Shown here piece by piece: positions 23,698 to 39,839 of a stretch of 56,755 nt of DNA. Within the stretch, counting starts at the first letter, position 1; the number at the start of each line of letters is the position of its first letter. Source of the DNA: a virus. The notes under the pieces were generated by a model that was given only the letters and a program-made list of their open reading frames with translations, ran no database searches and had not been told where the DNA came from. The position numbers were made by a program, and so were the translations under genes. The stretch spans positions 1-56,755 of IMG/VR virus record IMGVR_UViG_3300020442_002198; one strand, 5' to 3'.

Positions 23698-24068
23698 TGA
23701 GTGATAGTATGTTAGAAACCTCATATGGTATGGATCTGTTGTGGGCTAGCCACAAAGATTATGCATGTAAAATTTTAGTATTTAATAAAGCAAAGAATAG
23801 AACAACAATGTATTTTCATAAAAATACAGATAAAACTTGGTTTTGTAATGCAGGAAAGTTTAAGTTAAGATATATAGATGTTAAAGATGGACGTATGTAT
23901 GAAGCTGAATTAGAAGAAGGCAAAGTCTTTCATGTGCCTCCTTTGATGCCAGTGCAGTTGGAAGCATTAGTAGATAATTCAAGTATGACAGAAGCAAGTA
24001 ACGGATATGACGAATATGACATTTATCATGTAATACCAGCAGAAAAGTGGGAAGAAAATGGAATTTGA
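23697..24068 (+). CDS. Cupin-like protein with degenerate metal site
   Basis: This 123-residue single-domain cupin aligns by eye with the cupin gene at 28751-29107. MYFHKNTDKTW corresponds to MHMHKIKDETW, and VPPLMPVQL to NPPMVPHQI. Two of the usual metal-binding histidines are replaced (Tyr and Val), so it may bind no metal and act in binding or scaffolding. The family includes sugar isomerases and epimerases. It sits between the Nudix gene and two small genes, with overlaps at both ends. Function is inferred only at fold level. Confidence 0.7.
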   Translation: MSDSMLETSYGMDLLWASHKDYACKILVFNKAKNRTTMYFHKNTDKTWFCNAGKFKLRYIDVKDGRMYEAELEEGKVFHVPPLMPVQLEALVDNSSMTEASNGYDEYDIYHVIPAEKWEENGI

Positions 24069-24246: not shown

Positions 24247-24524
24247 TGGATCTATTTAATTTATCACAAGAACCAATGTTCCTAAATGAATGGAAAAAGT
24301 TTACTGCTGGATTAAAGCAGGTAGAAAATAAGGACTACGCACAGCAAATAAATGTGTTAATGGATGAGTTGAAAGACCTAGTACAAAAAATAGATGTTGG
24401 TCATGATTCCGATTTCAACGGATATATTAATCCGCATGGATTAATAGATACAAGACATAAAATTCAAGATGTAAGGCAGAAAATATATCAAAAATTTTCA
24501 GAAATGGGAATTACAGTGCGTTAA
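24243..24524 (+). CDS. Small helical protein, unknown
   Basis: This 93-residue protein (MMDLFNLSQEPMFLNEWKKF) has heptad-like helices (INVLMDELKDLVQKIDVGHD) around a short loop, FNGYINPHG. I recognise no family. It overlaps the upstream small gene by four bases and, at its end, the convergent fibre-like gene by 14 bases. It is the last gene of the rightward unit. Confidence 0.55.
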   Translation: MMDLFNLSQEPMFLNEWKKFTAGLKQVENKDYAQQINVLMDELKDLVQKIDVGHDSDFNGYINPHGLIDTRHKIQDVRQKIYQKFSEMGITVR

Positions 24525-26790
24525 ACGCTTTGACTGTAATTGTACCTACCATTGCAGAATGTGCAGTGCATTGATATCGCCAGTTACCACTAATACCAAA
24601 AGGCACATGCCAATACAAAGTACCTGATGTCTTACCATTTGCATTTGATCCTGTAGACTTTGTACCTGTAGTAGAATAATGAACAAGTCCTGTATTATAC
24701 GTAGTACCTGTGTTATCCTGGATTTCAAAAGGATGTCCTGACATTGTAGTACTATTAAGATTAAATGCAATAGTTGTGCCTGTAATACAGTAAATTGTAG
24801 GGTTTAGAGAACTATAATGGCTATCAAATCTGTATCCATTTGTTCCACTAGCAGTAACTTCTAGCATTGCAATAGCAGGTTCTGCTATTTCGTCAATACT
24901 AAGTCCAGCAGATGTAGCATCTTGTAAATCATCAAAGTCAGATGCACCTCCAGTTGCATTACTGTTAATAGTAATCTGTTTATTGCCCGTATCCACACTA
25001 AATGTAACATTACTACCTGGAGTTAATGTTAAAGTATCTGTAGCACTTGAAGCTATTATGTTATTTCCATCGGCAGCTATAGTTGCAAAACTATTTGATG
25101 CGCCGCCGCCGCCCCCGGCAGTTATAGTTACAACACCGTTAGATACTGCTACACCTGCACCACCTGCTCCTGCAAACTGCAATGTACTTCCTACTGGTAC
25201 ACTACTACCTGTGCTATCGTCGCCAACAAATGTAATAGAATCATCTCGGTCTATAATTTGATCGCTTGTAATGTTAATTGCTGTTTGGTGCTGAGTAACA
25301 CTAGATTGGGTAATATATTGATCTGGTACATTAGCCCATGTTACAGCAGAAGTAAGATCGTTTGTTTCTGTAGTTAATGCACCTATACCTGCGGCAGTTG
25401 GAGGTGTATATCTAAATACTCCTGTAGAATTATCATAACTTATTGCGCCGTCTCCACTAGCAACAAGTTCGTTACCAACACTAAAACTAGCGAGTGTGGC
25501 TACGGTTGGTGTATTACTAAAATTATTATAATCTAAATAATAAGATCCGTCAAAACCATCCAAAGTATCAGCATCAGTTCCTGCACCACCTGTTGTTGCG
25601 TCAGTTCCAGGTGCCCATTTTGCACCGTCCCATTTTAACACCTGCCCTGTCGTTGGAGTCACTGTAGTTGTATCTACATCACTTAAAAAATCAACACTAA
25701 ATGAACTTAAACTAATTGTAACATTTGAAGTATCTGTCGCAATAGCTGTTGCTATGTTAGTACCACCTAAAATATTAAGTGTAGATTCTCCAGAAGCGAT
25801 TACCTGTCCATCATCACTTACGATAGTCTTAAATGTGTCTCCGCTTCCTCCACCACTTCCTAAATCATCATGATTTGCAAGTTGTACCCAAGCACCTGCA
25901 TGTGCAAAATATGCCGCGCCTGTAGCATGTACATGTGCAAACATACCATGATATGTAGTTGCAGATGGTAAATCAACAAGGTTATCATAAACATTTGCAA
26001 ATTTAATTTTTCCTGTAGTTGTAATATCATTACTGCCCATGTCTAGATTTGATCCAGTTATTGCTACAATAGCATCTGCATTGTCAAAAAGCAATGAACC
26101 TGTATCAGTCAAATCGCCTATATCAGCAGGTATAGTTGGAGTATCAGTTAGATCATTATAAGAGCCTGTTCCAGGATCTGAAACTTTTAAACTATTGCCT
26201 TGATTTAAATGAAAATGACACCAATAATAAATTTGTGCAGGAGTTACTGACTTTACAGTTAATAATACTTTTCTTGTAGTAGCAGATGTAAATTTACTCA
26301 CATAATCTGCCATTGAAACTGGATCATCATTTATAATATATACTACACCTACATTATAATGTCCACCTCCTTCTACTAAAGCTCCATTTTCTGTTGTACT
26401 AAACATAAGTGGATGATAAAGTCCACCATAGTTTTTATTTGTATCATCTGACTGATCAAATATATATGTTATTCCCCTAACTAAATTTAATACAGGTTTT
26501 TCTACTCCATCTATATAAAATACACCCGATGCTTGTCCTGCTACAGTATCTATTCCTACTGTAACTGCCCTTTCCAAAACAGATATTCCTGTATCAATAA
26601 GATTTTGTGATAAATTTCCTGATGTAAGTAAAGTAAATCCGCCTCTATCTTTTCCGCTGAATACTCTTAAACTATTTGATTGTTGATCGTAAAATACTTC
26701 TCCACTTGAGCCAACGTTTCTATCGAGAAAATCGTCAGACCTTGGTATTATACGTATTCTATCTACTACTGGTGAGAACTGTGATGACAT
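24511..26790 (-). CDS. Fibre-like protein with two cupredoxin-like segments
   Basis: The 759-residue protein has a fibre-type middle (TTGQVLKWDGAKWAPGTDA, ADTLDGFDGSYYLDYNNF) flanked by two segments resembling copper-binding beta sandwiches. The N-terminal one (about 85-205) has YHPLMFS and YYWCHFHLNQG. The C-terminal one (about 660-759) has GHPFEIQ and YQCTAHSAMVG, with H686, C741, H744 and M747 in the order of type 1 copper ligands. The Cys-x2-His-x2-Met spacing is shorter than in plastocyanin. Surface presentation on the tail is inferred. A CATAAATA promoter and a TAGGAAA site precede the ATG. Confidence 0.7.
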   Translation of the reverse strand: MSSQFSPVVDRIRIIPRSDDFLDRNVGSSGEVFYDQQSNSLRVFSGKDRGGFTLLTSGNLSQNLIDTGISVLERAVTVGIDTVAGQASGVFYIDGVEKPVLNLVRGITYIFDQSDDTNKNYGGLYHPLMFSTTENGALVEGGGHYNVGVVYIINDDPVSMADYVSKFTSATTRKVLLTVKSVTPAQIYYWCHFHLNQGNSLKVSDPGTGSYNDLTDTPTIPADIGDLTDTGSLLFDNADAIVAITGSNLDMGSNDITTTGKIKFANVYDNLVDLPSATTYHGMFAHVHATGAAYFAHAGAWVQLANHDDLGSGGGSGDTFKTIVSDDGQVIASGESTLNILGGTNIATAIATDTSNVTISLSSFSVDFLSDVDTTTVTPTTGQVLKWDGAKWAPGTDATTGGAGTDADTLDGFDGSYYLDYNNFSNTPTVATLASFSVGNELVASGDGAISYDNSTGVFRYTPPTAAGIGALTTETNDLTSAVTWANVPDQYITQSSVTQHQTAINITSDQIIDRDDSITFVGDDSTGSSVPVGSTLQFAGAGGAGVAVSNGVVTITAGGGGGASNSFATIAADGNNIIASSATDTLTLTPGSNVTFSVDTGNKQITINSNATGGASDFDDLQDATSAGLSIDEIAEPAIAMLEVTASGTNGYRFDSHYSSLNPTIYCITGTTIAFNLNSTTMSGHPFEIQDNTGTTYNTGLVHYSTTGTKSTGSNANGKTSGTLYWHVPFGISGNWRYQCTAHSAMVGTITVKAFNAL

Positions 26791-26810: not shown

Positions 26811-26818
26811 ATATTTAT
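26811..26818 (-). promoter_or_regulatory. Late promoter of the cupredoxin-like fibre gene
   Basis: The minus strand reads CATAAATA, 20 bases before the ATG at 26790, overlapping the last codons of hldD. It separates the fibre gene from the sugar island. Confidence 0.6.
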
Positions 26819-27627
26819 GCCATATCAAGATAGTCAAGGGGTGAAATAAACCTATAATCGCCCATAGCAATCTGTAATTTACGGTTGTTGCTTTGTGTGA
26901 AGTATTGGTACTGTTGTTTGATTGTGTCAGGAATAGGAATTTCATTAATTTCGGCACTAGTTTTTTCGGCTATCTTTTCTGCAATCTCATAAAAACTTGT
27001 TGCACTACCTGTACCTACGTTCCAAACACCACTTTCGGTAATTTCAAAGAATCTTTTGTGTATTTCTACTACATCAGCAACACATATAAAATCACGTTTA
27101 ATATCTTTACTGCCTTCAAACACTAAAATTTTTTTATTTTCTTCAGCTTGTTCTTTAAATTTGTGAAACACACTTCTTTGATTGCCTTTATGTGCTTCTC
27201 CTGGACCATATACATTAAAATAACGAAAACCTTGCACAATAATATTATGTCGTTGTTGATGCACCCAGCGATCAAATAGATATTTTGACCATGCATACGG
27301 ACTTTCTGGCTGTAAATTTCCATCTTCAGTGAAATGATCCGTTTTTCCGTAAACACTTGCAGAACTTGCATACTGTAAATTTACACCTGCGTGATTACAC
27401 TCGTTATACAACCATTTTGAAAACTCATAATTTTGTAAAATTACCTTATCAACATCTTTTTCTTCAGTGCTACTGATTGCACCTAAATGCACCACCCAGT
27501 CAAAACCTTTTACATCTGGTAATTTTTCAGCATTCCATTCCCAGCCTGCCACTTCATGTTTATTAATTATAGAATTGATAAAATTTTGACCTATAAATCC
27601 TTGATGTCCTGTCACTAATATCTTCAT
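26815..27627 (-). CDS. hldD: HldD-like ADP-heptose 6-epimerase
   Basis: The 270-residue protein is an extended short-chain dehydrogenase. GHQGFIG (residues 7-13) binds the dinucleotide, SSASVYG and SPYAWSK hold the Ser and Tyr-x3-Lys catalytic residues, and FRYFNVYGPGE follows. The last segment and the setting beside HldE- and GmhB-like genes point to ADP-D-glycero-D-manno-heptose 6-epimerase, which makes the L-glycero form. It is shorter than E. coli HldD (310). It overlaps the gmhB-like gene by four bases. A UDP-sugar epimerase is the alternative, but context favours heptose. Confidence 0.85.
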   Translation of the reverse strand: MKILVTGHQGFIGQNFINSIINKHEVAGWEWNAEKLPDVKGFDWVVHLGAISSTEEKDVDKVILQNYEFSKWLYNECNHAGVNLQYASSASVYGKTDHFTEDGNLQPESPYAWSKYLFDRWVHQQRHNIIVQGFRYFNVYGPGEAHKGNQRSVFHKFKEQAEENKKILVFEGSKDIKRDFICVADVVEIHKRFFEITESGVWNVGTGSATSFYEIAEKIAEKTSAEINEIPIPDTIKQQYQYFTQSNNRKLQIAMGDYRFISPLDYLDMA

Positions 27628-28181
27628 TTTAAACTTTCTGCAAATTCTAATAAGTTTTCAAAAACTTTTGTACGTTTTTTTAAGTCTTTGTTGGCAAAAG
27701 TATTTAATTTTTTGAGTGTTTCTTCACCATATCCAGTTTTGACTAGAATAGGTTTTGCTTTAATTTTAATTGCAGCCTTTAAGTCTGTAATCTTATCACC
27801 AACATATACACCTTTTGAAAAATTCACGCCTATTTCTTTTTCAGCACGTTGGAACATACCAGTATTTGGCTTTGCGTAAATATCATCTTTTAGATTTGTT
27901 GTGCTGTAATACAATCCGTTAATACTTGTACATCCGATATTTCCTAAAAGTTGTAACATATGCTGATTTACTACATCAACATCTACCGGAGTCATCAAAC
28001 CTTTATGTATACCTGCCTGATTTGTTAAAATAACAACATCATATCCTTTATCACGCATAAGTTTTATGGCTTCAAGTGACCCTGGAATAGGTTCAAACTC
28101 TCTTGGGTGCTTGACATATGTACCAATGTCCTTATTAATTGTGCCGTCTCTGTCTAACCCTATTACAAAGCTATCTGTCAT
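27624..28181 (-). CDS. gmhB: GmhB-like heptose-bisphosphate phosphatase
   Basis: This 185-residue HAD-family protein starts at MTDSFVIGLDRDGTINKDIG (28181), overlapping the upstream oxygenase gene by 11 bases; the frame also opens at 28214. DRDGT is HAD motif I with the two catalytic Asp; VVILTNQAGI is motif II; KPNTGMFQRAEKE and VYVGDKITDLKAA are motifs III and IV. GmhB removes the 7-phosphate from heptose 1,7-bisphosphate between the two HldE steps. Family relatives include histidinol-phosphate phosphatases, but the heptose neighbours make GmhB likely. The Cys zinc loop of E. coli GmhB is not evident. Confidence 0.82.
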   Translation of the reverse strand: MTDSFVIGLDRDGTINKDIGTYVKHPREFEPIPGSLEAIKLMRDKGYDVVILTNQAGIHKGLMTPVDVDVVNQHMLQLLGNIGCTSINGLYYSTTNLKDDIYAKPNTGMFQRAEKEIGVNFSKGVYVGDKITDLKAAIKIKAKPILVKTGYGEETLKKLNTFANKDLKKRTKVFENLLEFAESLK

Positions 28182-28749
28182 ATGTATACCATCCTGTGAT
28201 AATATATTTTTCACCTTCGTATATAGGATTTCCTCTATGTGGATGTGTGTAAGCAGTTGGAAAAAATACTAAACTGCCCTGCTTAGGAGAAAGTTTTACT
28301 CCTTGATACAAAAATTCAGTATCGCCTCCATTCTTTACAGTGTTAAGATACAGCATGTAGTTAACAACTCGTGTACTTGATCCAATATCTCCACTTTCTT
28401 GGTGCCATGCATGGTATCCTTGGTGTGGACTAGTCTTTTGGACACTCATTCCCTTAGGAGAATGCTCTTCACTATTCTTTAAAATGTCGTATTTTTCTTG
28501 GTACAAGTTTGTATATGTGTCATGTAGTAAAGTGTAAAAATGTTCTACTAGTTTATAATCATAATGGTATTGTTTGTTGTTGTGTGCCCAATCAAATGTG
28601 ACTCTTTCATCACTATTATGCTGTAAACTATTCCTGGTATAAGTTTTCTTGAGTTTGCTCATCATTTTAAAGTGCCTGATTACTTCATTACAGTAATCTG
28701 CACTAAAAATGCCGTCATAGATTTCTATACCATTATAGTCGTCTTTCAT
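28171..28749 (-). CDS. 2OG-Fe(II) oxygenase (prolyl-hydroxylase type)
   Basis: The 192-residue protein starts MKDDYNGIEIYDGIFSADYC. It has YHAWHQESG and, later, PTAYTHPHRGNPI before KYIITGWYTY. These fit the jelly-roll core of 2-oxoglutarate/Fe(II) dioxygenases of the prolyl 4-hydroxylase type: an HxE-type pair, a distal His, and a basic 2OG-binding residue. Such enzymes hydroxylate proteins or small molecules. It lies between the cupin and gmhB-like genes, with near-zero spacing, so a tailoring role in the sugar pathway or on a virion protein is inferred. The substrate is unknown. Confidence 0.78.
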   Translation of the reverse strand: MKDDYNGIEIYDGIFSADYCNEVIRHFKMMSKLKKTYTRNSLQHNSDERVTFDWAHNNKQYHYDYKLVEHFYTLLHDTYTNLYQEKYDILKNSEEHSPKGMSVQKTSPHQGYHAWHQESGDIGSSTRVVNYMLYLNTVKNGGDTEFLYQGVKLSPKQGSLVFFPTAYTHPHRGNPIYEGEKYIITGWYTYDR

Positions 28750-28750
28750 G

Positions 28751-29107
28751 TTACTGACTGTCGCCTTTTTCTACTCTATAATTATCTTCAACACTATCTG
28801 CTGTGCTTACTTCTACGATAGTTCCTTCTTTTATGCAAGTAATTTGGTGTGGAACCATTGGAGGATTATGCCATGTGTCTCCTTTTTCTAAAGTGGTAAC
28901 ATTGACATCAGCAGTTTTTGTATCTATCCAGCGTACAATATAGCTTCCAGACAAAATATGCCAAGTTTCATCTTTAATTTTGTGCATGTGCATTGAACAT
29001 TTATGTCCTCTATCAAAATTAAGCAGTTTTCCGCAATATAAGTCATTTGTTGCAAAGATAGTTTCACTACCCCATCCTTTTTCTACTTCGCCTTTAAGTC
29101 TAGTCAC
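28751..29107 (-). CDS. Cupin, phosphomannose-isomerase-like
   Basis: This 118-residue single cupin domain has HKCSMHMHKIKDETWHILSG and NPPMVPHQITC, which supply the expected His ligands of a metal-binding cupin. It resembles the C-terminal part of type II mannose-6-phosphate isomerases. It starts eight bases inside the hldE gene end and is followed one base later by the oxygenase. It may isomerise or epimerise a sugar phosphate in the heptose pathway, but it is not a GmhA homologue. The gene at 23697-24068 is a degenerate relative. Confidence 0.75.
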   Translation of the reverse strand: MTRLKGEVEKGWGSETIFATNDLYCGKLLNFDRGHKCSMHMHKIKDETWHILSGSYIVRWIDTKTADVNVTTLEKGDTWHNPPMVPHQITCIKEGTIVEVSTADSVEDNYRVEKGDSQ

Positions 29108-30353
29108 TTATTTTCTCCACTATTTTACTTGTACTATAGCCATTTACTGTAGGAAATATATCTACATCTGCAAGATCTGAACCTACAACATCATTTGGGT
29201 CATAATCTCCGCCTTTTACAATAAGGTTTGGCTTTATTTCTTCAATTAATTGGTAAGGAGTATCTTCTTCAAACACTTTTACCTCGTCTACCCACGGTAA
29301 TTCTTCTAGTTGTGCTATTCTTGAAGTAATATTATTAATTGGTCTTTGTGATCCTTTAATTCTTTGTACACTTGCATCACTGTTAATACCAACAATTAAC
29401 TTACTACCCTTAGTTTTTGCATATTTTAGTAATTTTAGATGTCCTGCATGTAAAACATCAAACACTCCGTTAGTAAAAACAACTTCTTGATGAATATCTT
29501 CTTTAGAAACAACATGTACACCTCTATGTTCAACTGCTCTTGCGGCGGCAAAACATGCTTTTTCACATGCTGTAAATACATTTTCATCTTGATCTATTAG
29601 ATAAGCCAATACAGCTAACACTGTGTCACCTGCACCTGTGACATCAGCTACTTCCTGGGCAGGTTCTTGAAAATGTTGATATTCGCCGTTTTTGTTGAAA
29701 ACATACATACCATTTGCACCGGCTGTTACTACCAGCCATGTCCAATTATAGTCAACAACTGCTTGTTTTGCCTTTTCTATAGAAAATTTGCCAAACCAAT
29801 TTTTAAATTCGCGAAAATTAGGTTTCACAAGGTAAGCATTTCTATATATTTCAGCATTTTGCTTAGGATCTACCAAAATTTTACACTTTTTTTCTAATAT
29901 CTTTTGTATAGTATCTTCTCTTACTGTACCTTTTGCGTAATCACTTACGCATACAATATCATTTTCATTCAATTCGCTTATTAACCTATCAAAAGCGTCT
30001 GAACCTGTGTATTTTTCTTCTCTATCCCACCTACAAATGTGCTGACCTCCTTGTCCGACAAGTCTATTCTTTGTAGTTGTCATAGTACTATCCATACTTG
30101 CTCTAAAATTAATCTTTTTAAAGTCGGAAAAACAGTCTATAACCCTATAGCCTTCTTTATCTGGTGCAATACTTCCATAAACTCCAATTTTTCCGTTGAG
30201 ATTTGCAATGTTGACTGCTAAGTTGCCAGCACCTCCGGGACAAAATTTTTGTTCTACTTCTTTAAGCACTGGTACAGGCGCTTCAGGACTGATACGACGG
30301 GCTTTGCCTACGATCCATCTATCCAACATTATATCGCCGTAAACTTTTATCAT
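29100..30353 (-). CDS. hldE: HldE-like bifunctional heptose kinase/adenylyltransferase
   Basis: The 417-residue protein has the two domains of HldE. Residues 1-285 form a PfkB-type kinase (VYGDIMLDRWIVGKARRISP, CPGGAGNLAVNIA, and the catalytic DVTGAGDTVLA near 238). Residues about 290-417 form a nucleotidyltransferase with TNGVFDVLHAGHLKLLKYAK (HxGH) and GINSDASVQRIKG. HldE phosphorylates D-glycero-D-manno-heptose 7-phosphate and later transfers AMP to heptose 1-phosphate to give ADP-heptose. It is somewhat shorter than E. coli HldE (477). It begins the heptose block after the halogenase, with an eight-base gap. Confidence 0.93.
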   Translation of the reverse strand: MIKVYGDIMLDRWIVGKARRISPEAPVPVLKEVEQKFCPGGAGNLAVNIANLNGKIGVYGSIAPDKEGYRVIDCFSDFKKINFRASMDSTMTTTKNRLVGQGGQHICRWDREEKYTGSDAFDRLISELNENDIVCVSDYAKGTVREDTIQKILEKKCKILVDPKQNAEIYRNAYLVKPNFREFKNWFGKFSIEKAKQAVVDYNWTWLVVTAGANGMYVFNKNGEYQHFQEPAQEVADVTGAGDTVLAVLAYLIDQDENVFTACEKACFAAARAVEHRGVHVVSKEDIHQEVVFTNGVFDVLHAGHLKLLKYAKTKGSKLIVGINSDASVQRIKGSQRPINNITSRIAQLEELPWVDEVKVFEEDTPYQLIEEIKPNLIVKGGDYDPNDVVGSDLADVDIFPTVNGYSTSKIVEKISD

Positions 30354-30361
30354 AATTTATA

Positions 30362-31816
30362 CTAACATAGCTTTCTAATTAAGTCAATCATCATTTTATG
30401 CGGAATTGTTTTAACATTAGATTCAGTGTCTCTTAAATTTTGCACTGATCTGTTTGCATAATCTTTTACTGCCTGAGGGAAGTTTTGAAACTGTTGCTTT
30501 ATGCTTTCTGTATCAAATAAACCAAGGCCATGCAATACTAATGCATGATTATATTCGTTAAACAACACTTTAGATGTTTTATTATTAAAGTCTTCGCTAA
30601 TTGGTAGCTTATTTTTCCAAATTTCTAAATTATTTTTTAGACTTTCAGGTAATTCTACAGATCTTGCATTTATCCAAAAATTAGTATCATCTCTATCACA
30701 CATGTAATGCAGTAAAACAAAGTCTCTTATGTTTTCTAATATTGCATTTACTTCTTCATTATAACGATCTATAGTAGTTTGGTTATATTTGTGTAATCTA
30801 CTGGCAAGTAAAAATGCTTGTTGTATACTTGTACCAATACTACTTGCTTCTAAAGGTTCAACAAAACTTGCACTTAATCCTATTGCACATACATTTTGAA
30901 TCCATGTTTTATCTAATGCTCCCGGATCGAAACTGATTGTTTTGGCTATATCAACAGTATGTCCTAGATATTCTTCAACTTCTGCCTTTGCTTCTTCGTC
31001 AGTAATATAGTCACTATCAAATATGTACCCGTTACCTTTTCTACCCCATACAGGAATACGGAACATCCAACCATATTTCATTGCTTGTGCAAGTGTCCAA
31101 TACGGATATTCTGTCTCATCTCCTGTTGGAAACACAATAGCACGTTTCATTTTTAAGTATTGACCATAACTTTGCCATTCGGCACCTAATTTACCAATTA
31201 ATAATCTTGCAAATCCGGTGCAATCTATATAAAAATCATAATTGTATTCACTACTTCCTATTAATTTGTCCACTCCGTTTTTATCTAGTACCACTTCTGT
31301 AATTTTATCATCATATTGACTTATTCCTATTTGTGTACATTTATCACTAAGGAAAGTGTTTAGTTCACGTGTGTTAAAATGGTACTGTGTTACTGGCATT
31401 TCTTCTGGAGATATGTCTATAAATTTATTGAATGGGACTTCGCTGTTCCAAGTTGTATGTGCTACTAAGTCTATAGGATCACAATCTTCGCCTATTAATT
31501 TAGCATATGCCATCGGAGTATCGTTATGAGCTCCTACTAGATTGCCTTCTACACCCTGTAAATAGTCTCTGCTTCCCCAACCTTTAAACATAATACCACT
31601 TTTAAACGTTGCACCACAATTTTTAACTATTTCGTGAGGATGTATACCACAATAATCTATAAATCTTGCCCAATGTTCTGTACTGCCTTCACCTACACCA
31701 ATTATTCCTACGTCACTACTGCTTATAATGTCTATTTCATAATTAGGATATGTGTTTTTTAGAATAAGTGCAGTTACAAATCCAGCTGTACCACTACCTA
31801 AAATACAAATTCTCAT
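30362..31816 (-). CDS. Flavin-dependent (tryptophan-type) halogenase
   Basis: The 484-residue protein has the FAD motif GSGTAG (7-12), GVGEGSTEH, and ATFKSGIMFKGWG with Lys72 where the family's catalytic lysine is expected. It also has GWMFRIPVW at the WxWxIP position (second Trp is Phe) and FVEPLEASS with the conserved Glu. Such enzymes use FADH2, oxygen and halide to halogenate aromatic substrates. A halogenase from a marine cyanophage (VirX1) is established knowledge. Here it stands between a DUF6445-like protein and hldE. The substrate is unknown; an aromatic group on a protein or small molecule is likely. A TAGGAG site precedes the ATG. Confidence 0.9.
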   Translation of the reverse strand: MRICILGSGTAGFVTALILKNTYPNYEIDIISSSDVGIIGVGEGSTEHWARFIDYCGIHPHEIVKNCGATFKSGIMFKGWGSRDYLQGVEGNLVGAHNDTPMAYAKLIGEDCDPIDLVAHTTWNSEVPFNKFIDISPEEMPVTQYHFNTRELNTFLSDKCTQIGISQYDDKITEVVLDKNGVDKLIGSSEYNYDFYIDCTGFARLLIGKLGAEWQSYGQYLKMKRAIVFPTGDETEYPYWTLAQAMKYGWMFRIPVWGRKGNGYIFDSDYITDEEAKAEVEEYLGHTVDIAKTISFDPGALDKTWIQNVCAIGLSASFVEPLEASSIGTSIQQAFLLASRLHKYNQTTIDRYNEEVNAILENIRDFVLLHYMCDRDDTNFWINARSVELPESLKNNLEIWKNKLPISEDFNNKTSKVLFNEYNHALVLHGLGLFDTESIKQQFQNFPQAVKDYANRSVQNLRDTESNVKTIPHKMMIDLIRKLC

Positions 31817-31824
31817 GTAATCTC

Positions 31825-32508
31825 CTATATGAAGAATTGTTGATTTATTCTATATGTATCAACAAACATATCTGGTTTTATATATGCTGTATGTAGTGCG
31901 TTTTGGTTATATAAAACCATCCTATTATATACCATTTCTGCCATACCAATCATTTCCCAGTCTCCTACACTATCAGTCAGGTAGTGATCTATTATTTTTG
32001 TTTTTTCTTTATCTATGTGTCCACTACGGTTACTTGTGCTACCATTAAATTTATAAAAACTTGTGCCGCCTGCACATTCGTCAGGTGTATTTAAGTATAT
32101 TGTGCTTGCAAAATTTACATCACTAGGATTATCAACATGGGGGGCCATAGGTGGCAAATCAATACTTTTCATCACATTAACCATAAATGTTGCTTGTTGA
32201 AAACTTAAATGTATAGCTTGATGATGTACACTATTAAATACGTTTGGCCAATTTGTTCTTAATAATTGGTCATATATTCCGCTCATACTGTCTAAATCAT
32301 AAAATGCGTTAATTCGTAACGCAGGATTTCCACATCTAATACGTTTATTAGCTGTTGGCGGTATACTTAGTGCTAATTGTCTTACTAAATCAGGATTTTT
32401 GTAAAAGTTATCAACTATTACACAAGGTACAGTGTCATAATATTCAACTTTTATCTCGCAATCGGGATTGATTGCAAATACATCCTGTTCATTAATGATA
32501 TTAATCAT
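31825..32508 (-). CDS. DUF6445-like putative 2OG-Fe(II) oxygenase
   Basis: The 227-residue protein has APHVDNPSDVNFASTIYLNT (HxD motif), then GGTSFYKFNG, and later NRMVLYNQNALHTAY with YRINQQFFI. The HxD...H...R order fits a 2OG-Fe(II) oxygenase jelly roll. The pattern resembles DUF6445 proteins, which I recall lying beside tryptophan halogenases; the pairing here agrees. It overlaps the carbamoyltransferase gene by eight bases and ends eight bases before the halogenase. It may process the halogenase substrate. Confidence 0.65.
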   Translation of the reverse strand: MINIINEQDVFAINPDCEIKVEYYDTVPCVIVDNFYKNPDLVRQLALSIPPTANKRIRCGNPALRINAFYDLDSMSGIYDQLLRTNWPNVFNSVHHQAIHLSFQQATFMVNVMKSIDLPPMAPHVDNPSDVNFASTIYLNTPDECAGGTSFYKFNGSTSNRSGHIDKEKTKIIDHYLTDSVGDWEMIGMAEMVYNRMVLYNQNALHTAYIKPDMFVDTYRINQQFFI

Positions 32509-34282
32509 TCATTTTACTCACTAATATATCCAGTTCAGGCAAATACATATACTCTATATCACTGTTTGCCATTGTTCTAACTGCATCATCAAGTGTCTCT
32601 ACAAGTGGTTCTCCTCCTAAATTAAACGATGTGTTAAACAATATTGGAACTTTTGTTTTTTCATAAAACTTTTCTATTAAATTGTAATAGTGTTTGTTTT
32701 GTTCTTTTGTTACTGTTTGTATACGGCAAGTTCCATCTACATGAATAATGCTAGGAATCTTTTCTTCTACACCTGGCTTACAATCCATTGCATACATCAT
32801 GTGTGGTGATTCTTTCAATGTATGCATTTCAAACCAATCATGAGCATGATCGGCTAATATTGTTCCTGCAAAGGGACGAAAATATTCTCTACGTTTTACA
32901 ATGTTTACATGATCTTTTCCATTTGGGTCAGTTGGATCATATAGTATACTACGATTTCCTAATGCACGTGGTCCGTTTTCTGATCTACCTTGGAAAATAG
33001 TTACAATATTTCTATCTGTAAGTAGATTTACTACATCATCATAACTAATATTTGTTTTAAATTCTGCTTCATATTTTTCGCATACAGAAACGACATCATC
33101 TTTTGTGTAAATGTTACGAGGACCTAAATATAAACTATTACGATAGTTACGTACTTTATCATCTTCAGTTGTGTTATGATAAATTGCAAGTGCCGCTCCA
33201 ACACAAGTGCCAGCATCACTCGATATAGGTTCTACAAATAAGTTGATTTCATGCTCTTTTAGCTTATCTAAATACCAATAGTTTGCAACACAGTTAAGTC
33301 CATAACCTCCAGAAAGAACAATATTTTTATTTCCAGTTTTTTCACTTGCTTCTATTATAAGTCTTAAAACTTGTTCTTGCGTTTCTTGTTGTAATGCAAA
33401 TGCTAAATCTCTTCTATTTTCTAATTTTGTTAGGTCCTTTTCTCCTGGCACTGTATGAAAATATTCGTATGAACCTTCATTTACAAATGCACCGTTTGGA
33501 TAATTTGGAACAATAAAATTCCTATTTGCTTGTGGCCATTTTGTTTCATTTACAAATAATTTTGGAATATTTTCGTTTGGTTTTCCGTAAGGAGCAAGGC
33601 CCATAGTTTTGCCAGCTTCAATAGGTTGAAATCCACAATAATGTGTTACTGCTTCATATACTTTTACTATACCTGCACTATCATCTATACATAGATCAAA
33701 CTCTTCTTCGCCTTCTTTTTGAACGTTTTCTATCATAGCACCTGTAAATGGACCACGTCCGCCTTGATGTTTCCATAATGTTTTAAAATTTGCAGGATAG
33801 CTACAATCAAATATAGTTTCTAATTCCCAAGTCATTTCCTGATTCTCACCAAATTGCATAGGAATAAACGTACCAGCGCCATCAACTATAACTGCTGTTG
33901 CAGTCTCAAACCCACTGTTATAGAATGCACATGCGGCATGTAATTTATGATGTACATGACTTAGATCTATAACTTGAGGATGGTCATAAACCCAATCAGG
34001 ATTTCTATCAATAAGCCCTAGTTTTCTAGCTAATCCTGTATACATATCATCACCGGTGTAATCTATTCTTGAAGATTCAGCTAACGGCTGAGTGTGAGCT
34101 ATAACTAGATAATCTAATTTATCAGTATACTCTAATATTTTGACCATTCCTGCGAATGGACTACCATCATATTTTTGTCTAGATAATCTTTCTTCTTCAA
34201 CTGCAAAAACTATTTCGCCATCTTTTAATAAACAAACACAACCATTGTGTCCACGTGTAATGCCGGCAATCCACTGTGCCAT
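32501..34282 (-). CDS. NodU/CmcH-type O-carbamoyltransferase
   Basis: The 593-residue protein has an N-terminal ASKHA-type domain: GITRGHNGCVCLLKDGEIVF (7-26), VEEERLSRQK, DLSHVHHKLHAACAF with the histidines that bind metal, and VIVDGAGTF. It continues with VLSGGYGLNCVANYW and the YrdC-like C-terminal FQGRSENGPRALGNRSIL and PILFNTSFNLGGEP. The family transfers a carbamoyl group from carbamoyl phosphate, via carbamoyl-AMP, to a hydroxyl on a sugar or antibiotic. In this cluster the likely acceptor is the heptose. It abuts the oxygenase genes on both sides. Confidence 0.92.
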   Translation of the reverse strand: MAQWIAGITRGHNGCVCLLKDGEIVFAVEEERLSRQKYDGSPFAGMVKILEYTDKLDYLVIAHTQPLAESSRIDYTGDDMYTGLARKLGLIDRNPDWVYDHPQVIDLSHVHHKLHAACAFYNSGFETATAVIVDGAGTFIPMQFGENQEMTWELETIFDCSYPANFKTLWKHQGGRGPFTGAMIENVQKEGEEEFDLCIDDSAGIVKVYEAVTHYCGFQPIEAGKTMGLAPYGKPNENIPKLFVNETKWPQANRNFIVPNYPNGAFVNEGSYEYFHTVPGEKDLTKLENRRDLAFALQQETQEQVLRLIIEASEKTGNKNIVLSGGYGLNCVANYWYLDKLKEHEINLFVEPISSDAGTCVGAALAIYHNTTEDDKVRNYRNSLYLGPRNIYTKDDVVSVCEKYEAEFKTNISYDDVVNLLTDRNIVTIFQGRSENGPRALGNRSILYDPTDPNGKDHVNIVKRREYFRPFAGTILADHAHDWFEMHTLKESPHMMYAMDCKPGVEEKIPSIIHVDGTCRIQTVTKEQNKHYYNLIEKFYEKTKVPILFNTSFNLGGEPLVETLDDAVRTMANSDIEYMYLPELDILVSKMND

Positions 34283-34806
34283 TATACTTCTCCCATTTCG
34301 TAACTAAAGTCACATACTAATACTTTACGTTCATTTTTTGTTGGTGCTGTTCCATGCCAAACAGTTCCGTCCATTATAATTAAATCTCCTGCTGTAGGTG
34401 GTATATATTCGCACCCAAACTTATCATGCACTAGAAATAAATTGCCGGCTTGCGGCCAGTCTTCATTATACTCATAGGTATTTAAAAATAATACACTTGT
34501 AAACTGCAAACCTGGCTGATGTCTATGCACACCGCTGTAAGATTCTTTTTGATAGTCGATCCACCAGCATTTTTCGAACTTTATATTTTGTATAGGTAGG
34601 TTAATATGTCCTACTATGTAATCTAAATAACTTGTATCTTCAAAAGGCCATGCAAAATCATCCATATAGTACATGTTGGCACCGCCACTATCTTTGTGTG
34701 TTTGGGTATGTGTTCCATAAAGTTTTGCAAAATCTTTGTAACCTTCGTAATTACATCTAATACGCCAACCACTGTACATTTGTAAAAACCATTCATCATC
34801 CATCAT
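34282..34806 (-). CDS. Putative 2OG-Fe(II) oxygenase, copy 2 of a tandem pair
   Basis: The 174-residue protein is a paralogue of the next gene upstream. The shared order is CWWIDYQKESYSGVHRHQPG, AGNLFLVHDK, then AGDLIIMDGTVWHGTAPTKN and ERKVLVCDF. The HxH pair, the later WHGT and the Arg fit a putative 2OG-Fe(II) oxygenase family (TIGR02466-like), although the usual Asp/Glu ligand is not obvious. The start overlaps the upstream stop by four bases, and its stop overlaps the carbamoyltransferase start by one base. Substrate unknown. Confidence 0.65.
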   Translation of the reverse strand: MMDDEWFLQMYSGWRIRCNYEGYKDFAKLYGTHTQTHKDSGGANMYYMDDFAWPFEDTSYLDYIVGHINLPIQNIKFEKCWWIDYQKESYSGVHRHQPGLQFTSVLFLNTYEYNEDWPQAGNLFLVHDKFGCEYIPPTAGDLIIMDGTVWHGTAPTKNERKVLVCDFSYEMGEV

Positions 34807-35384
34807 CCTTTGAATGAACCTCCTGCATCCTGGTCAAGATTTTCTACAAATTTATATTCCCAATCCATACAAAATACTTTACGTTCGTTTATATTAGGAT
34901 ATGTACCATGTTGAATTCTTCCGTCTAATATTACTACATCACCAGCTTCTGGAGTGAAATCAATATGTTTTATTTTACTAGGTGTTGCAAATAGATGTCC
35001 TGCATTTGGTCTAGTTTCATCATGAAAATAAGGAGTTAAATTACAAATTACACTAAACCGTTGTGTTTGTTCGTGCGAGTGCATAGTACTATAGGTTCCT
35101 AGTGGATAATCGATCCACCAACTGCTTACAGGGCGTACATTTTCTATAGGCAAATTTTCTACACAACTATACACAAAATCAATAAAATGTTTTTTTGGGT
35201 CAGCGTACTCAGGATATCTATAATCTTCGTAGTAGTTCATTTTACTTCCGCCCGGTGTAGTGTGTCCGTCAACATTTAATTCAAATAAACTTAAAAATCT
35301 TTCATATTCGTTATAATGATTTTCAGCCAACATCCAATCTTGAAATATTTCATTATAGAAATGATCTGCTAAACTAAAACTCAT
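34803..35384 (-). CDS. Putative 2OG-Fe(II) oxygenase, copy 1 of a tandem pair
   Basis: The 193-residue protein shares SSWWIDYPLGTYSTMHSHEQ, AGHLFATPSK, AGDVVILDGRIQHGTYPNIN and ERKVFCMDW with its downstream paralogue. This is the same likely 2OG-Fe(II) oxygenase core, diverged mainly in the N-terminal 60 residues. HSHE offers His and possibly Glu as iron ligands. It overlaps the GT9-like gene by four bases (ATGA). Tandem copies with different N-termini suggest different substrates or a heterodimer. Confidence 0.65.
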   Translation of the reverse strand: MSFSLADHFYNEIFQDWMLAENHYNEYERFLSLFELNVDGHTTPGGSKMNYYEDYRYPEYADPKKHFIDFVYSCVENLPIENVRPVSSWWIDYPLGTYSTMHSHEQTQRFSVICNLTPYFHDETRPNAGHLFATPSKIKHIDFTPEAGDVVILDGRIQHGTYPNINERKVFCMDWEYKFVENLDQDAGGSFKG

Positions 35385-36445
35385 ATTTTTGGCTTTCCGG
35401 TATGTCCTAGTATTTGTGCTGGTTGTGCTTGTTGATTATGTACTACGCCGTGTGTTGGACACACTTCTTGTGTTTGTTGAGGAGGTTTATATGTACCTGT
35501 ATATTTTTCACTTTGGCCCAGACGTTTTTTTACGGTGTTAACAATCAGCTTGCGATCTTCGTCTGTCATCATCATTACTTCGTCATTTAACCTGTCAGGC
35601 ATGTCTTCCATTGTAAGTCTAATAGGACTGTATGTGCGTTTATCTGCACCTAAATCAATTATATCAAAGTTGTCGTTATTAGGAAAACTAACATTAACAG
35701 GATACGTAGCACCTAAAACAACTGTTGCCGTTCCACCTAGTGCTTTAACAATATGTTGTCCTACACTATCACATCCGAGAAAATGATCTGCTATTTCGAT
35801 TATGCCTGCCCAAATTCTTATATCAGGAATATTAGGTTGTGCTACAGGATATTTACTTTGTCCTTCTTCTAGTGTAATTGGAATTTCACTCATCATTATT
35901 ACTGCATATTCTTTTTTGAGAGTGTTTACTATTTCAACTAAATCATTTAGGTTAAAACTTCTACTTGTGCCATCGATTATTAAATCTCCGTTATTTTCAA
36001 CAGCTCTACCAAATGGTTGTACTACTATAACCTTATCAAATCCAGTAACGCTTTTAACTTCTTCAACTACATTATATGCTTGTGCTATTTCTGGTTTAAA
36101 TAAATGTATTGTTGGATCTTCTAGATCTCTGATTCCTTTTTTGTTTATTTCGATATCAAACGCTTGTGCAATACTGCACTTTTGATTGTAGTATTCCCAT
36201 ACTCTATAAGGTTCTGGAGATATACAATTTCTATTTTTTATTTTTTCTTCGTATAAATTTTTGTGCCAATTATCAAATGCACGTTTATGTAGTGTAGGAT
36301 GTCCTTTGTAAAAGTCCATACCTCCTTCACATACTATGATAAAATCGTCTTCAGGATTATCTTTTTCGTAGTTGATAAAAGCGGGGATGGAACTGATAAC
36401 TCTACCAGCGCCACCGTTGATAAAAAATGCGGTTGAACGTTCCAA
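35381..36445 (-). CDS. GT9/heptosyltransferase-like glycosyltransferase
   Basis: The 354-residue protein starts on TTG with AGGAG six bases upstream; the first residues are MERSTAFFINGGAGRVISSI. The C-terminal half has VIVVQPFGRAVENN and HFLGCDSVGQHIVKALGG followed by TVVLGATYPVN. This matches the GT-B donor-binding region of GT9 ADP-heptose transferases (D-S-x-x-x-H...A-L-G-x-x-T/P). It would use the ADP-heptose made by the genes downstream. Its tail (about 320-354) is Gln/Pro-rich with a CPTH motif. It is the first gene of the island, with its own promoter candidate. Confidence 0.7.
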   Translation of the reverse strand: MERSTAFFINGGAGRVISSIPAFINYEKDNPEDDFIIVCEGGMDFYKGHPTLHKRAFDNWHKNLYEEKIKNRNCISPEPYRVWEYYNQKCSIAQAFDIEINKKGIRDLEDPTIHLFKPEIAQAYNVVEEVKSVTGFDKVIVVQPFGRAVENNGDLIIDGTSRSFNLNDLVEIVNTLKKEYAVIMMSEIPITLEEGQSKYPVAQPNIPDIRIWAGIIEIADHFLGCDSVGQHIVKALGGTATVVLGATYPVNVSFPNNDNFDIIDLGADKRTYSPIRLTMEDMPDRLNDEVMMMTDEDRKLIVNTVKKRLGQSEKYTGTYKPPQQTQEVCPTHGVVHNQQAQPAQILGHTGKPKI

Positions 36446-36496: not shown

Positions 36497-36504
36497 TATT
36501 TATT
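36497..36504 (-). promoter_or_regulatory. Late promoter candidate of the sugar/tailoring island
   Basis: The minus strand reads AATAAATA, 51 bases before the TTG start at 36445. A TATAAT box nearer the gene lacks a good -35. This is the only gap above 100 bases upstream of the island, so its transcription probably starts here. Confidence 0.5.
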
Positions 36505-36533: not shown

Positions 36534-36553
36534 AAAGGGCATTTACGCCCTTT
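36534..36553. terminator. Hairpin between the tail chaperone-like gene and the sugar island
   Basis: A 7-bp stem, AAAGGGC/GCCCTTT, with a six-base loop lies ten bases after the tail chaperone-like stop. On the plus strand it is followed by a T-run; on the minus strand no T-run follows. It may only weaken leftward read-through into the island. Confidence 0.55.
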
Positions 36554-36562: not shown

Positions 36563-37285
36563 TTATTCGCCGCCGCCCATTAGGCTAGGGTCAGGGGCAT
36601 TATCTGTATCTGGATGCCTTGGAAACATCATCATAGCTTGCCACGGTTCATAGCCAGCTTCCTGTAATTTTTGAGGTAAATCTCTCAATAATTTTCTAAA
36701 TGTTTCATATGTTTGTCTTAAGTTTGCAGGCATATCTGGAGTCATTTTTGAATCTGTCCCTGCTAGTTGTTCATTTCTCACAAGTCTCACATGCTCCCAT
36801 GTAAGAGTTTTATCAACACCTTGAGCTTCCCAAGTTCTTACTGGCACTATAAATTCATCTTTTTCAAAATCATATTTGATATTCCATTCATCGTAAATAT
36901 CACGTGCTAAAAATTCTCCTGGTTGGTCTACGTTTGTGTAACCTTCGGGTGTTGCCCACATTGTTACATAATCTCTTTTAAAACGTCTCTCAGCATCTTC
37001 TGGGTGTCCACAATCATTTGCAATTTCGCAAAGAAACGGTTCTTTTTTACAATCTACTGTGACTCTAGTTACGTTTTCTGGCACTGGGCGTTCAAGCTCT
37101 TCTGGTTCGTACAAGCACCAGCCTGTTTCTTTTCCGTAGTCTTCACTGCTAGGATCATTATCTACTTCAAAGGTTAAATATTCCGGACCTTCATAGAAGT
37201 CTTTATCTTTTTTGCCTTGAGTGAAAGTATCACCGCCCCACTCATCCGGCACCGGAAATTCAAATTCTACTCTTATGTTTGGCAT
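36563..37285 (-). CDS. Tail assembly chaperone-like protein
   Basis: The 240-residue protein ends with HVRLVRNEQLAGTDSKMTPD, then RQTYETFRKLLRDLPQ and GYEPWQ. This is the R-x-x-RN-x-x-L-x-x-TD ... Y-x-x-(F/Y)R-x-x-LRDLP pattern of phage tail fibre assembly chaperones. Those proteins help fold or attach receptor-binding fibres. The N-terminal 150 residues are beta-rich and acidic with no family I recognise. It lies directly after the three Gly/Cys-rich adhesin-like genes, a usual position for a fibre chaperone. Confidence 0.72.
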   Translation of the reverse strand: MPNIRVEFEFPVPDEWGGDTFTQGKKDKDFYEGPEYLTFEVDNDPSSEDYGKETGWCLYEPEELERPVPENVTRVTVDCKKEPFLCEIANDCGHPEDAERRFKRDYVTMWATPEGYTNVDQPGEFLARDIYDEWNIKYDFEKDEFIVPVRTWEAQGVDKTLTWEHVRLVRNEQLAGTDSKMTPDMPANLRQTYETFRKLLRDLPQKLQEAGYEPWQAMMMFPRHPDTDNAPDPSLMGGGE

Positions 37286-37300: not shown

Positions 37301-38137
37301 TTAATAAAAAGTTATTTTTACGATTCCTGAACCACCTTGTCCAGAACCACCTGCACAACACTTGGCCCAGTTACCGCAATAGCTACTTACTCCGCCTGTT
37401 CCTCCGCCGGCCGGCCAATTGACATAACATCCACATGCACACCATGCTTCAGTAGTTTTGACAAAATCTGTCATACCTATCATTGGTGCTTGTCCTGCAA
37501 AGCTCATTGTACGCCAACAATGACATCCGCCAAATCCTGGTCTAAATCCTGTGGTACCCATCATTCCAAAGTCTGCACCAAATATACCACATATTAGACA
37601 GTTAGCACATGTATGGTGGTGTCTTGGTCCCCAAGCATCTCCATTACACATCCAACCACCGCAACCTCCGTAAGCACAGAAGTTTGATAGGTTATATCCA
37701 TTTACATATGATCTGCAGCCCATTGTTGCTGTACATGTATGTGATTTATCGCATCTCCAAGTACCGCCCGCACATATAGTATACTGACAGCCAGGATTAG
37801 TATTTACAGTTTTAACTGCATAGTTTCCTCCTGCACCGCCAATACTAAATGAACAACAATTACAACAGGTATGTCCTGCACCACCACCGCCACCTGACCA
37901 AATCTCGAAAGTTAGCTTAGTAACATTTGACGGCACTGTCCACAAACAGCATTTGCCGTTAGCTTGTTCACAACAGTTACCAGCACTAGAACATCTGTGA
38001 CATCTTAAGCCACGTTCGTTATATATCCATTGCACTCCATACTCAACGTTTGCACCTTGTGCAAGATCATCAGTTGTAATTTCGCCACTTGGTATTTGAT
38101 CTGATTTTACTTTTTTATATGTTGCGTATACTGCCAT
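37301..38137 (-). CDS. Gly/Cys-rich adhesin-like protein, copy 3
   Basis: The 278-residue protein holds about 29 cysteines (CHRC, NCCEQANGKCC, TCCNCC, CHC, CACGC, KCC) between polyglycine loops (SGGGGGAGH, GGAGGNY, GGCGGW, PAGGGTGG, GGSGQGGSG). The order of Gly-rich motifs recalls the polyglycine-helix adhesins that tip some T4-like long tail fibres; that comparison is inference. Variation among the three copies is concentrated at about residues 195-215 and in the N-terminal 45. It is the last copy before the chaperone-like gene. Disulphides or metal binding are likely. Confidence 0.7.
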   Translation of the reverse strand: MAVYATYKKVKSDQIPSGEITTDDLAQGANVEYGVQWIYNERGLRCHRCSSAGNCCEQANGKCCLWTVPSNVTKLTFEIWSGGGGGAGHTCCNCCSFSIGGAGGNYAVKTVNTNPGCQYTICAGGTWRCDKSHTCTATMGCRSYVNGYNLSNFCAYGGCGGWMCNGDAWGPRHHHTCANCLICGIFGADFGMMGTTGFRPGFGGCHCWRTMSFAGQAPMIGMTDFVKTTEAWCACGCYVNWPAGGGTGGVSSYCGNWAKCCAGGSGQGGSGIVKITFY

Positions 38138-38149: not shown

Positions 38150-38989
38150 TTAAGCAAAAGTAATTTTTACTACACCTGATCCACCTTGGCCAGACCCGCC
38201 TGCACAGCATTTTGCCCAGTTACCACAGTATGTAGAGTTACCAGATGTTCCTCCTCCAGCTGGCCAATTTACATAACATCCGCATGTACACCAACTTTCA
38301 ACTACAGCAACAGTTTGCATTAGTCCTATCATAGGTGCTTGACCTGCGTGTGACCAGTCAGCACCTCTACAGTGACAACCACCAAATCCATTATATTGCC
38401 CAGTTGTTGCCATCATACCAAAATCTGCACCAAATATACCACAGATATTACAGTTAGCACAAACTTGTGAATGCCTAGGTCCCCAAGCATCACCATTACA
38501 CATGTATCCGCCACAACCACCTGTTGTACAGAAGTTTGATAGGTTATATCCGTTAATATAAGACCGACATCCCATAGTTGCTGAACATGTATGTGATTTA
38601 TCGCATCTCCAACTACCACCTGCACATATTGTATATTGGCAACCAGGCACTGTGTTAATAGTTTTTATACCGTAGTTACCACCACCGCCTCCAATTGAAA
38701 ACGAACAGCAATTACAACATGTATGGCCTGCGCCACCACCACCACCTGACCAAATTTCAAATGTTACTTTGGTTACATTCGATGGTACAGTCCATAAACA
38801 ACATTTACCATTAGCTTGCTCACAACAATTACCATTGTTAGAACATTGTCTACAACAACGGCCTCTTGGATTATATATCCATTGCACTCCTCTATGGTTC
38901 TGTGCACCGACAGTTAGTTTATCTTCAGAGATACTGTTACTAGAGAAATTATCTGCTGTTAGTTTTTTATATGAATTATAACTTGCCAT
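38150..38989 (-). CDS. Gly/Cys-rich adhesin-like protein, copy 2
   Basis: This 279-residue paralogue shares the NCCEQANGKCCLWTVPSNVT core, CDKSHTCSATMGCRS and the GGSGQGGSGVVKITFA end. Its own variable segment is TTGQYNGFGGCHCRGADWSH. Codon differences from its neighbours are scattered, so the duplication is not recent. RBS AGGAT lies upstream and the ATG follows a 10-base gap. It probably forms part of the same fibre tip, or an alternative tip. Confidence 0.7.
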   Translation of the reverse strand: MASYNSYKKLTADNFSSNSISEDKLTVGAQNHRGVQWIYNPRGRCCRQCSNNGNCCEQANGKCCLWTVPSNVTKVTFEIWSGGGGGAGHTCCNCCSFSIGGGGGNYGIKTINTVPGCQYTICAGGSWRCDKSHTCSATMGCRSYINGYNLSNFCTTGGCGGYMCNGDAWGPRHSQVCANCNICGIFGADFGMMATTGQYNGFGGCHCRGADWSHAGQAPMIGLMQTVAVVESWCTCGCYVNWPAGGGTSGNSTYCGNWAKCCAGGSGQGGSGVVKITFA

Positions 38990-38999: not shown

Positions 39000-39839
39000 C
39001 TAAGAAAAGCTAATTTTAACAATTCCAGAACCTCCTTGACCAGATCCACCAGCACAACATTTTGCCCAGTTACCACAATAACTTGATACACCCGGCATAC
39101 CGCCTCCTGCTGGCCAGTTTACATAACATCCACATGCACACCATGCTTCTGTAGTCGCTGCAACTTGCATTTTACCAACAAACGGTGCAGCTCCGCTTCC
39201 TGATGTTTGTCCTGTACAACGGCATGTTGATGTTCCCATTTTCCACCCGTTTGTGCCGCTTATACCAAAATCTGCACCTCTGTCTGAACAGATATTACAA
39301 TTGGCACAACTATTCTGAAATGTCCTTGCGCCCCATGCATCACCATTACACATCCAACCACCACATGCACCAAACACGCAAAAGTTTGATAGATTAAATC
39401 CATTTACATAAGAACGACATCCCATAGTTGCTGAACATGTATGTGACTTTTCGCATCTCCATGAACCTCCAGCACACACAGTATATTGACAACCAGGATT
39501 AGTACTAACTGTTTTTATTCCATAATTGCCGCCGGAGCCTCCGATTGAAAACGAACAGCAATTACAACAAGTATGTCCAGGTGCGCCACCACCTCCTGAC
39601 CATATTTCAAATGTCACTCGTGTAACACCTGATGGTACAGTCCAAAGACAACATCTACCATTTGCCTGTTCACAACAGTTACCTGCTGGACTACAGTCAT
39701 GACATGCATGACCTCTTGAGTTATAAATCCATTGCACACCGTATTCATGCCCAGCACCTGGAACTAGTAGGTCCTCAGTGATTACACCCGAATCAATTTG
39801 TGCTGATGAAATCTGTTTATAACTTGAATATGTTGCCAT
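39000..39839 (-). CDS. Gly/Cys-rich adhesin-like protein, copy 1
   Basis: This 279-residue paralogue is the most diverged copy. Its variable segment (SDRGADFGISGTNGWKMGTS and CRCTGQTSGSGAAP) lacks the GIFGADFGMM-type stretch of the others, while the cysteine framework is kept. The N-terminus (MATYSSYKQISSAQIDSGVI) matches the other two in pattern and may attach to the fibre. It is the first of the three transcribed, after the small fibre genes. Confidence 0.7.
   Translation of the reverse strand: MATYSSYKQISSAQIDSGVITEDLLVPGAGHEYGVQWIYNSRGHACHDCSPAGNCCEQANGRCCLWTVPSGVTRVTFEIWSGGGGAPGHTCCNCCSFSIGGSGGNYGIKTVSTNPGCQYTVCAGGSWRCEKSHTCSATMGCRSYVNGFNLSNFCVFGACGGWMCNGDAWGARTFQNSCANCNICSDRGADFGISGTNGWKMGTSTCRCTGQTSGSGAAPFVGKMQVAATTEAWCACGCYVNWPAGGGMPGVSSYCGNWAKCCAGGSGQGGSGIVKISFS

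Follow-up and report, generated by a model that had tools for sequence, protein, structure and literature searches.

A predicted late operon of ADP-heptose, glycosyl transfer and tailoring genes linked to adhesin-like genes in marine phages

The stretch of DNA analyzed here, called the window throughout, is the whole of the IMG/VR record IMGVR_UViG_3300020442_002198, a linear virus fragment of 56,755 bases from a myovirus of the T4 superfamily. Between positions 26815 and 36445 it carries a run of 11 tightly packed minus-strand genes, separated by overlaps or by gaps of at most 8 bp. In the order of transcription these encode a glycosyltransferase (GT), two 2-oxoglutarate (2OG) oxygenase-like proteins, a NodU-type carbamoyltransferase, a DUF6445 protein, a halogenase, HldE, a cupin, a 2OG-Fe(II) oxygenase, a GmhB-like phosphatase, and HldD. 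All 11 open reading frames (ORFs) were recovered at the coordinates proposed by an earlier sequence-only reading, and family searches agreed with the families it had named. Its count of four 2OG-oxygenase-like proteins stood for two of them, while the other two were weak in Pfam, one of these being backed by a PHROG match.

The first gene of the operon (35381-36445, TTG start, phrog_8954) encodes the GT, which was assigned as GT-B and GT9-like from its predicted fold. The two oxygenase-like proteins that follow matched PF13759 below the cut-off, with E-values of 0.019 (34803-35384) and 0.0048 (34282-34806), the latter also matching phrog_81 (3.6e-8). The NodU/TobZ-type O-carbamoyltransferase (32501-34282) contained both the Carbam_trans_N and C domains (PF16861, 5.1e-59; PF02543, 1.1e-30) and was matched among solved structures by PDB 7xb6 (8.5e-60), GdmN, and TobZ. 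It is followed by the DUF6445 protein (31825-32508; PF20043, 1.2e-17), which has an oxygenase-like HxD...H pattern and for which the phrog_1644 label “minor coat protein” is doubtful, and by the flavin-dependent, tryptophan-type halogenase (30362-31816; PF04820, 8.7e-85). HldE (29100-30353) matched PRK11316 at 2e-104 over both its heptose-7-phosphate kinase and heptose-1-phosphate adenylyltransferase domains. The remaining genes encode the small cupin (28751-29107; PF07883, 6.3e-7; PF01050, 23.6 bits, at the cut-off), the 2OG-Fe(II) oxygenase (28171-28749; PF13640, 2OG-FeII_Oxy_3, 1.8e-13; phrog_61, 7.7e-38), the GmhB-like HAD phosphatase, whose predicted substrate is heptose-1,7-bisphosphate (27624-28214; PRK08942, 1.4e-38; PDB GmhB, 1.6e-20), and the ADP-heptose 6-epimerase HldD (26815-27627; TIGR02197, 2.7e-66; PDB 1eq2, 3.4e-44).

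Genes on either side of the operon lie on the same strand. Upstream are a tail-fibre assembly chaperone-like protein (36563-37285; PF16778, 1.6e-6) and three Gly/Cys-rich adhesin-like proteins at 37301-38137 (10.4% Cys, 18% Gly; phrog_4205, 1.3e-39), 38150-38989 (10.8% Cys, assigned by alignment), and 39000-39839 (10.4% Cys). A large tail-fibre protein (40914-47999) lies beyond them and a fibre-like protein (24511-26790) lies downstream, both in positions conserved in relatives. Neither tRNAs nor Rfam families were found in the window.

The operon is predicted to be expressed late, like virion genes, because the motif NATAAATA, a documented cyanophage late motif (PMC2984593), precedes it as it does structural genes, and because a terminator-like hairpin (36534-36553, minus strand) separates it from the chaperone gene. 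The operon's motif (AATAAATA) lies 52 nt ahead of the first gene, at 36497-36503 on the minus strand; a further copy lies at 26812-26818, before the fibre gene. In the same gap before the GT gene, NATAAATA was found in 48 of 50 distinct relatives, with about 4 expected. The exact T4 late promoter TATAAATA occurred at two sites in the window, neither of them at the operon, and was absent from the leader gap; an objection to late promoters drawn from this absence was overturned by the cyanophage motif, and the late-type promoters of the sequence-only reading were supported at both positions. Across the window ATAAATA occurred 13 times where chance would give 30, but the sites gathered close before gene starts: 8 of the 13 lay at most 60 nt upstream of genes, including tail-tube and fibre genes (P 1.7e-10). 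These sites likely map late operons, judging from their positions.

Synteny was compared over 194 loci with 59 distinct GT sequences, which are related and were collected by similarity, so that the counts measure conservation and not independent events. GT was followed by NodU in 50 of the 50 loci with enough sequence, and a tandem Gly/Cys-rich array (~10% Cys, 18% Gly) with a tail-chaperone gene stood upstream of GT in 40 of 42; one of the exceptions, L016, has another Gly/Cys-rich protein. GT came after the array in 45 of 45 arrays. Of 35 loci, 34 had GmhB downstream, 22 the halogenase, and 11 HldE within the locus itself. HldE sometimes lies farther off, as on one 167-kb contig (L110 and L028), where it sits beside a sheath-stabiliser gene. 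It was found in 18 of 18 long records (one copy weak, in a fragment, and one split), and strong HldD and cupin matches occurred in 17 of the 18 long GT-bearing records, the exception being a fragment. Three phages with a halogenase or HldE but no GT had no strong HldD. In almost every locus the module is bordered by large fibre genes on either side. A relative of the GT was encoded by 441 stretches, and the cluster is found both in cultured cyanophages and in hundreds of contigs from marine viruses. The recurrence of the same order in dozens of marine viral contigs indicates that the operon is more than a chance arrangement, and the independent shuffling of genes that the sequence-only reading had named as its refutation was not what the loci showed.

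The window GT protein had no Pfam or NCBIfam match, so the GT9-like call rests on the predicted fold, and a PDB sequence search with the GT profile returned nothing significant. An AlphaFold model built from 17 sequences was usable (pLDDT 74, pTM 0.78), and its top PDB matches were chains of TibC, both apo and with ADP-heptose (E 3.7e-8; TM 0.48-0.54). TibC is a heptosyltransferase that decorates the Escherichia coli adhesin TibA. The GT9 structure 3tov had the highest TM score (0.56), followed by WaaC (2.2e-6) and WaaF. These scores are modest, and thus the model shows a GT-B, GT9-like fold but no specific acceptor; on this model the enzyme may work like a TibC-family heptosyltransferase. PF01075 (GT9) matched the GT ORFs of four relatives weakly (6.6e-5 to 5e-4) and the window protein not at all. 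In hhalign comparisons with E. coli WaaC and WaaF the conserved motifs were in register, with the C-lobe motif CDSVGQH...GATYP aligned to NDSGLMH...GPSSP of WaaF, but the sequence matches were not significant.

HldE, the HAD phosphatase, and HldD are, as judged by sequence, the late enzymes of ADP-heptose synthesis. HldE matched TIGR02198 (9.4e-70) and TIGR02199 (1.6e-45) as its best families and retains the motifs GAGD and LHAGH, while HldD keeps YxxxK and HKG. The phosphatase keeps LDRDG and has lost the zinc-binding cysteines. Scores for HldE, the phosphatase (PRK08942), and HldD (TIGR02197) remained under the NCBIfam curated cut-offs, as would be expected for phage copies that have diverged. 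Catalytic motifs were conserved across 23, 51, and 30 aligned sequences of HldE, GmhB, and HldD, respectively, and searches of solved structures returned heptose enzymes as the top match for HldE and HldD and GmhB in second place for the phosphatase. The claim of ADP-heptose synthesis was supported for the late steps, while the first step is missing: GmhA, the sedoheptulose-7-phosphate isomerase, was found in 0 of 18 long phage records, and the control cyanobacterium S. elongatus yielded none either. The cyanophage “phosphoheptose isomerase” was rejected as GmhA since it matches HAD phosphatases.

The operon cupin is a candidate substitute for GmhA, offered as a testable idea from its sequence: it matches the type-II phosphomannose isomerases weakly (PF01050), conserves the metal ligands, and consistently accompanies hldD. 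An unusual fusion of an HldE-type nucleotidyltransferase domain to a type-II phosphomannose-isomerase cupin (1501-2280, minus strand; PF01050, 87.8 bits), with an ATAAATA motif of its own, may also bear on the missing step. Near the tail-sheath stabiliser gene, another small cupin (23697-24068, plus strand) shares 29% identity with that of the operon. Several PHROG labels appear to be wrong (L054:16021-16365; PHROG 1238, 7851, 1644), among them the “phosphoheptose isomerase” matching HAD phosphatases and a “cysteine dioxygenase” that is an isomerase-like cupin. The analysis thereby flags annotation errors that propagate in PHROGs.

Among the tailoring enzymes, the halogenase retains the FAD motif GSGTAG, FK, and FVEPLE, together with the catalytic Lys and Glu, and has WMFRIP in place of WxWxIP. 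The halogenase and several oxygenases are accessory and not core. For the halogenase this is shown by S-H38 and HTVC008M, which carry halogenases while GT, HldD, and cupin are all absent from them. The tailoring set is swapped between relatives, as shown by L013 (2198-9963), where ORFs resembling radical-SAM, amidinotransferase, and aminotransferase proteins are sited between NodU and halogenase. In L016 (3171-12939) and L015, three to four halogenase-like genes cluster around GT and NodU. Between oxygenase and halogenase, several relatives (L059:14699-15133; L058:12198-12587) encode a small protein that has a signal-like segment (AGEW.EKPVMCG) at its N-terminus and is absent from the window.

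The adhesin-like proteins are distinct in composition. The 29 Gly/Cys-rich proteins examined from divergent phages contained 8-13% Cys and 14-21% Gly, compared with 0.7% Cys in other window proteins. A Pfam Gly-rich domain was matched only weakly by these proteins, and a PDB sequence search with the adhesin-like profile gave no match. In a collection of 50,697 phage records, all 15 records with an adhesin-like gene also carried the GT.

Among named phages, those of the jumbo phage PA5oct group came closest to the window in their terminase (52.8%), and the window terminase was 67-82% identical to the terminases of several large uncultured relatives; a near-identity DNA search of the phage collection with the window gave no match. 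Compared with S-SSM7, identity reached 62-63% for NodU and 60% for GT, against 36% for the terminase and 21% for the neck protein. With a split support of 1.0, the NodU tree separated S-SSM7 and Sf-FS3 from P-SSM2, S-CAM1, and S-CAM3. Because NodU and GT are far more alike than the terminase, and because of the S-SSM7 grouping in the tree, the sequences indicate that the core has moved between phage lineages with its adhesin-like neighbours. A cellular origin was rejected: only five loci occurred in genome contigs, all from marine metagenome-assembled genomes, all with NodU and most with fibre or Gly/Cys genes, and they are best read as misbinned phage contigs.

Taken together, the reading we favour, with moderate confidence, is that the operon is expressed late and that its products modify the proteins with which the phage itself binds its host. 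Judging by their sequences, HldE, the HAD phosphatase, and HldD would produce ADP-heptose from heptose-7-phosphate, the missing GmhA step being supplied by the host or the cupin. Before virions are assembled in the infected cell, the GT9-like protein would then attach heptose to the neighbouring Gly/Cys-rich adhesin-like proteins or to a fibre. NodU would carbamoylate the sugar, and the oxygenases and halogenase would put hydroxyl or halogen on the sugar or on protein side chains. The adhesin array, chaperone, GT, and NodU would form a fixed core, with the halogenase and oxygenases as swapped parts that diversify the surface. Support comes from the adhesin linkage, the TibC fold match, the late motif, the conserved catalytic motifs, the constant company of GT with strong HldD and cupin, the movement of the module from one phage lineage to another, the lack of multi-span membrane proteins, and the reported lack of heptose in marine Synechococcus LPS. 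A more detailed version is put forward only tentatively, in which uncultured marine jumbo phages and cyanophages share a system for heptosylating and tailoring virion adhesins: Cys-rich adhesins would be heptosylated by a fold-level TibC relative, then carbamoylated, hydroxylated, and sometimes halogenated, and a phosphomannose isomerase-like cupin would replace GmhA so that hosts without heptose could supply the sugar.

Several points weigh against the modification of host-binding proteins. We infer both the role of the Gly/Cys-rich proteins as adhesins, from position, chaperone, and composition, and the choice of virion proteins as substrate; the AlphaFold model of a Gly/Cys-rich protein, at a pLDDT of 29, gave no usable fold. 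The catalytic Asp of WaaC aligns with an invariant Arg in the GT, which also resembles the lipopolysaccharide (LPS) heptosyltransferases WaaC and WaaF in fold. The four-cysteine iron finger of TibC (PMC4358343) is absent from the window GT, which has no CxxC, and the enzyme is therefore not classed as a member of the TibC family (BAHT). Recombination hot-spots near tail genes can produce neighbourhood linkage of this kind.

Remodelling of the host surface, with ADP-heptose altering host LPS or capsule during infection and leading to superinfection exclusion, is rather unlikely in our view, even though hldE, gmhB, and hldD belong to the classic LPS-core genes, the fold matches of the GT include WaaC and WaaF, and this is the published reading (Sullivan 2010, PMC3037559; for related phages, the pelagimyophage paper PMC7029224). 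It is at odds with the late promoter and with the adhesin linkage in 40/42 loci and 45/45 arrays. Multi-span membrane proteins were not found among 358 module ORFs from 55 loci, and flippase, polymerase, and ligase were all absent from the module ORFs. In marine Synechococcus WH8102 and CC9311 the LPS is also reported to lack heptose (PMC4515613), an argument that covers the cyanophage relatives only. The preference of the sequence-only reading for a virion fibre or adhesin target over host LPS is thus favoured by linkage, TibC fold, lack of membrane transport genes, and heptose-free Synechococcus LPS, with the substrate itself still conjectural.

It is improbable, in our view, that the operon acts on a different virion component, for example the large fibres or the baseplate, with the Gly/Cys proteins as mere neighbours. 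The large fibre genes on both sides of the module would suit this reading, but the Gly/Cys array and the chaperone are the invariant neighbours that lie nearest to the GT. Slightly more doubtful still is a role in making a small amino-acid or sugar compound that is halogenated and carbamoylated, for example an antibiotic acting in pseudolysogeny, as proposed for S-SSM6a (Iyer 2021, PMC7824862). A carbamoyltransferase and a halogenase are enzymes characteristic of natural-product clusters, but scaffold synthase, exporter, and resistance gene are all absent, only 22/35 loci have the halogenase, and the module is invariantly linked to adhesin-like genes and to a GT that has no part in the proposal.

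If modification of the phage's own host-binding proteins is correct, two published guesses (LPS genes and secondary metabolite) would be replaced by one testable idea, that phages chemically decorate the proteins that contact the host. Ocean-phage halogenases, carbamoyltransferases, and 2OG oxygenases would gain a purpose, and a non-genetic layer would be added to host range. No report of virion heptosylation was found in a limited literature search.

Among known systems, the E. coli ADP-heptose/LPS core pathway (HldE, GmhB, HldD, WaaC, WaaF) supplies the best family matches for the late enzymes, whereas the phage lacks GmhA, has lost the zinc cysteines of GmhB, and has a GT that matches at fold level only. 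The autotransporter heptosyltransferase systems TibC/TibA and AAH/AIDA-I share the ADP-heptose donor pathway, the GT-B fold, and the pairing of heptosyltransferase and adhesin genes. Their acceptor is a beta-helix autotransporter, while the putative phage acceptor is a Gly/Cys-rich protein, and the phage module is without evident iron-finger cysteines or beta-barrel. VirX1 of cyanophage Syn10 is likewise a marine-phage flavin halogenase, and the window halogenase matches its structure (PDB 6qgm, 1.4e-38); its identity to the halogenase gene in the Syn10 record is ~29%, and the window gene differs in sitting in a tailoring operon.

The module also has precedents in cyanophages. SynMITS9220M01 was reported with heptose genes (PMC7378029). 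Sullivan 2010 (PMC3037559) reported seven “LPS” genes that occur together, including the four T4-GC 304, 305, 307, and 308, and stated that their functioning was not known; in P-SSM2 these share GT, NodU, HldE halves, phosphatase, cupin, and HldD beside fibre and Gly/Cys genes, but the halogenase is elsewhere in the genome. Iyer 2021 (PMC7824862) described a ten-gene cluster of S-SSM6a (carbamoyltransferases, halogenase, oxygenases, cupin, HAD phosphatases) as a single system that would make a secondary metabolite or decorate the capsule. The combination had accordingly been described before, contrary to the sequence-only reading. Its placing of the late ADP-heptose steps, the GT9-like transferase, NodU, halogenase, and oxygenases in one late operon between fibre and adhesin-like genes was supported. 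The S-SSM7/S-SSM6a cluster (T4-GC 302-308) keeps almost the same gene order beside fibre genes and shares the fibre, Gly/Cys proteins, chaperone, GT, NodU, oxygenases, halogenase, HldE halves, HAD phosphatase, cupin, and HldD. It differs in having HldE as two genes, a HAD phosphatase from another subfamily, a second carbamoyltransferase half, and HldD on the opposite strand, and its published description leaves heptose and adhesins unmentioned. What is new here relative to these accounts is the heptose-transferase assignment, the invariant linkage to adhesin-like and chaperone genes, the late promoter, and the finding that the module is widespread in uncultured jumbo phages.

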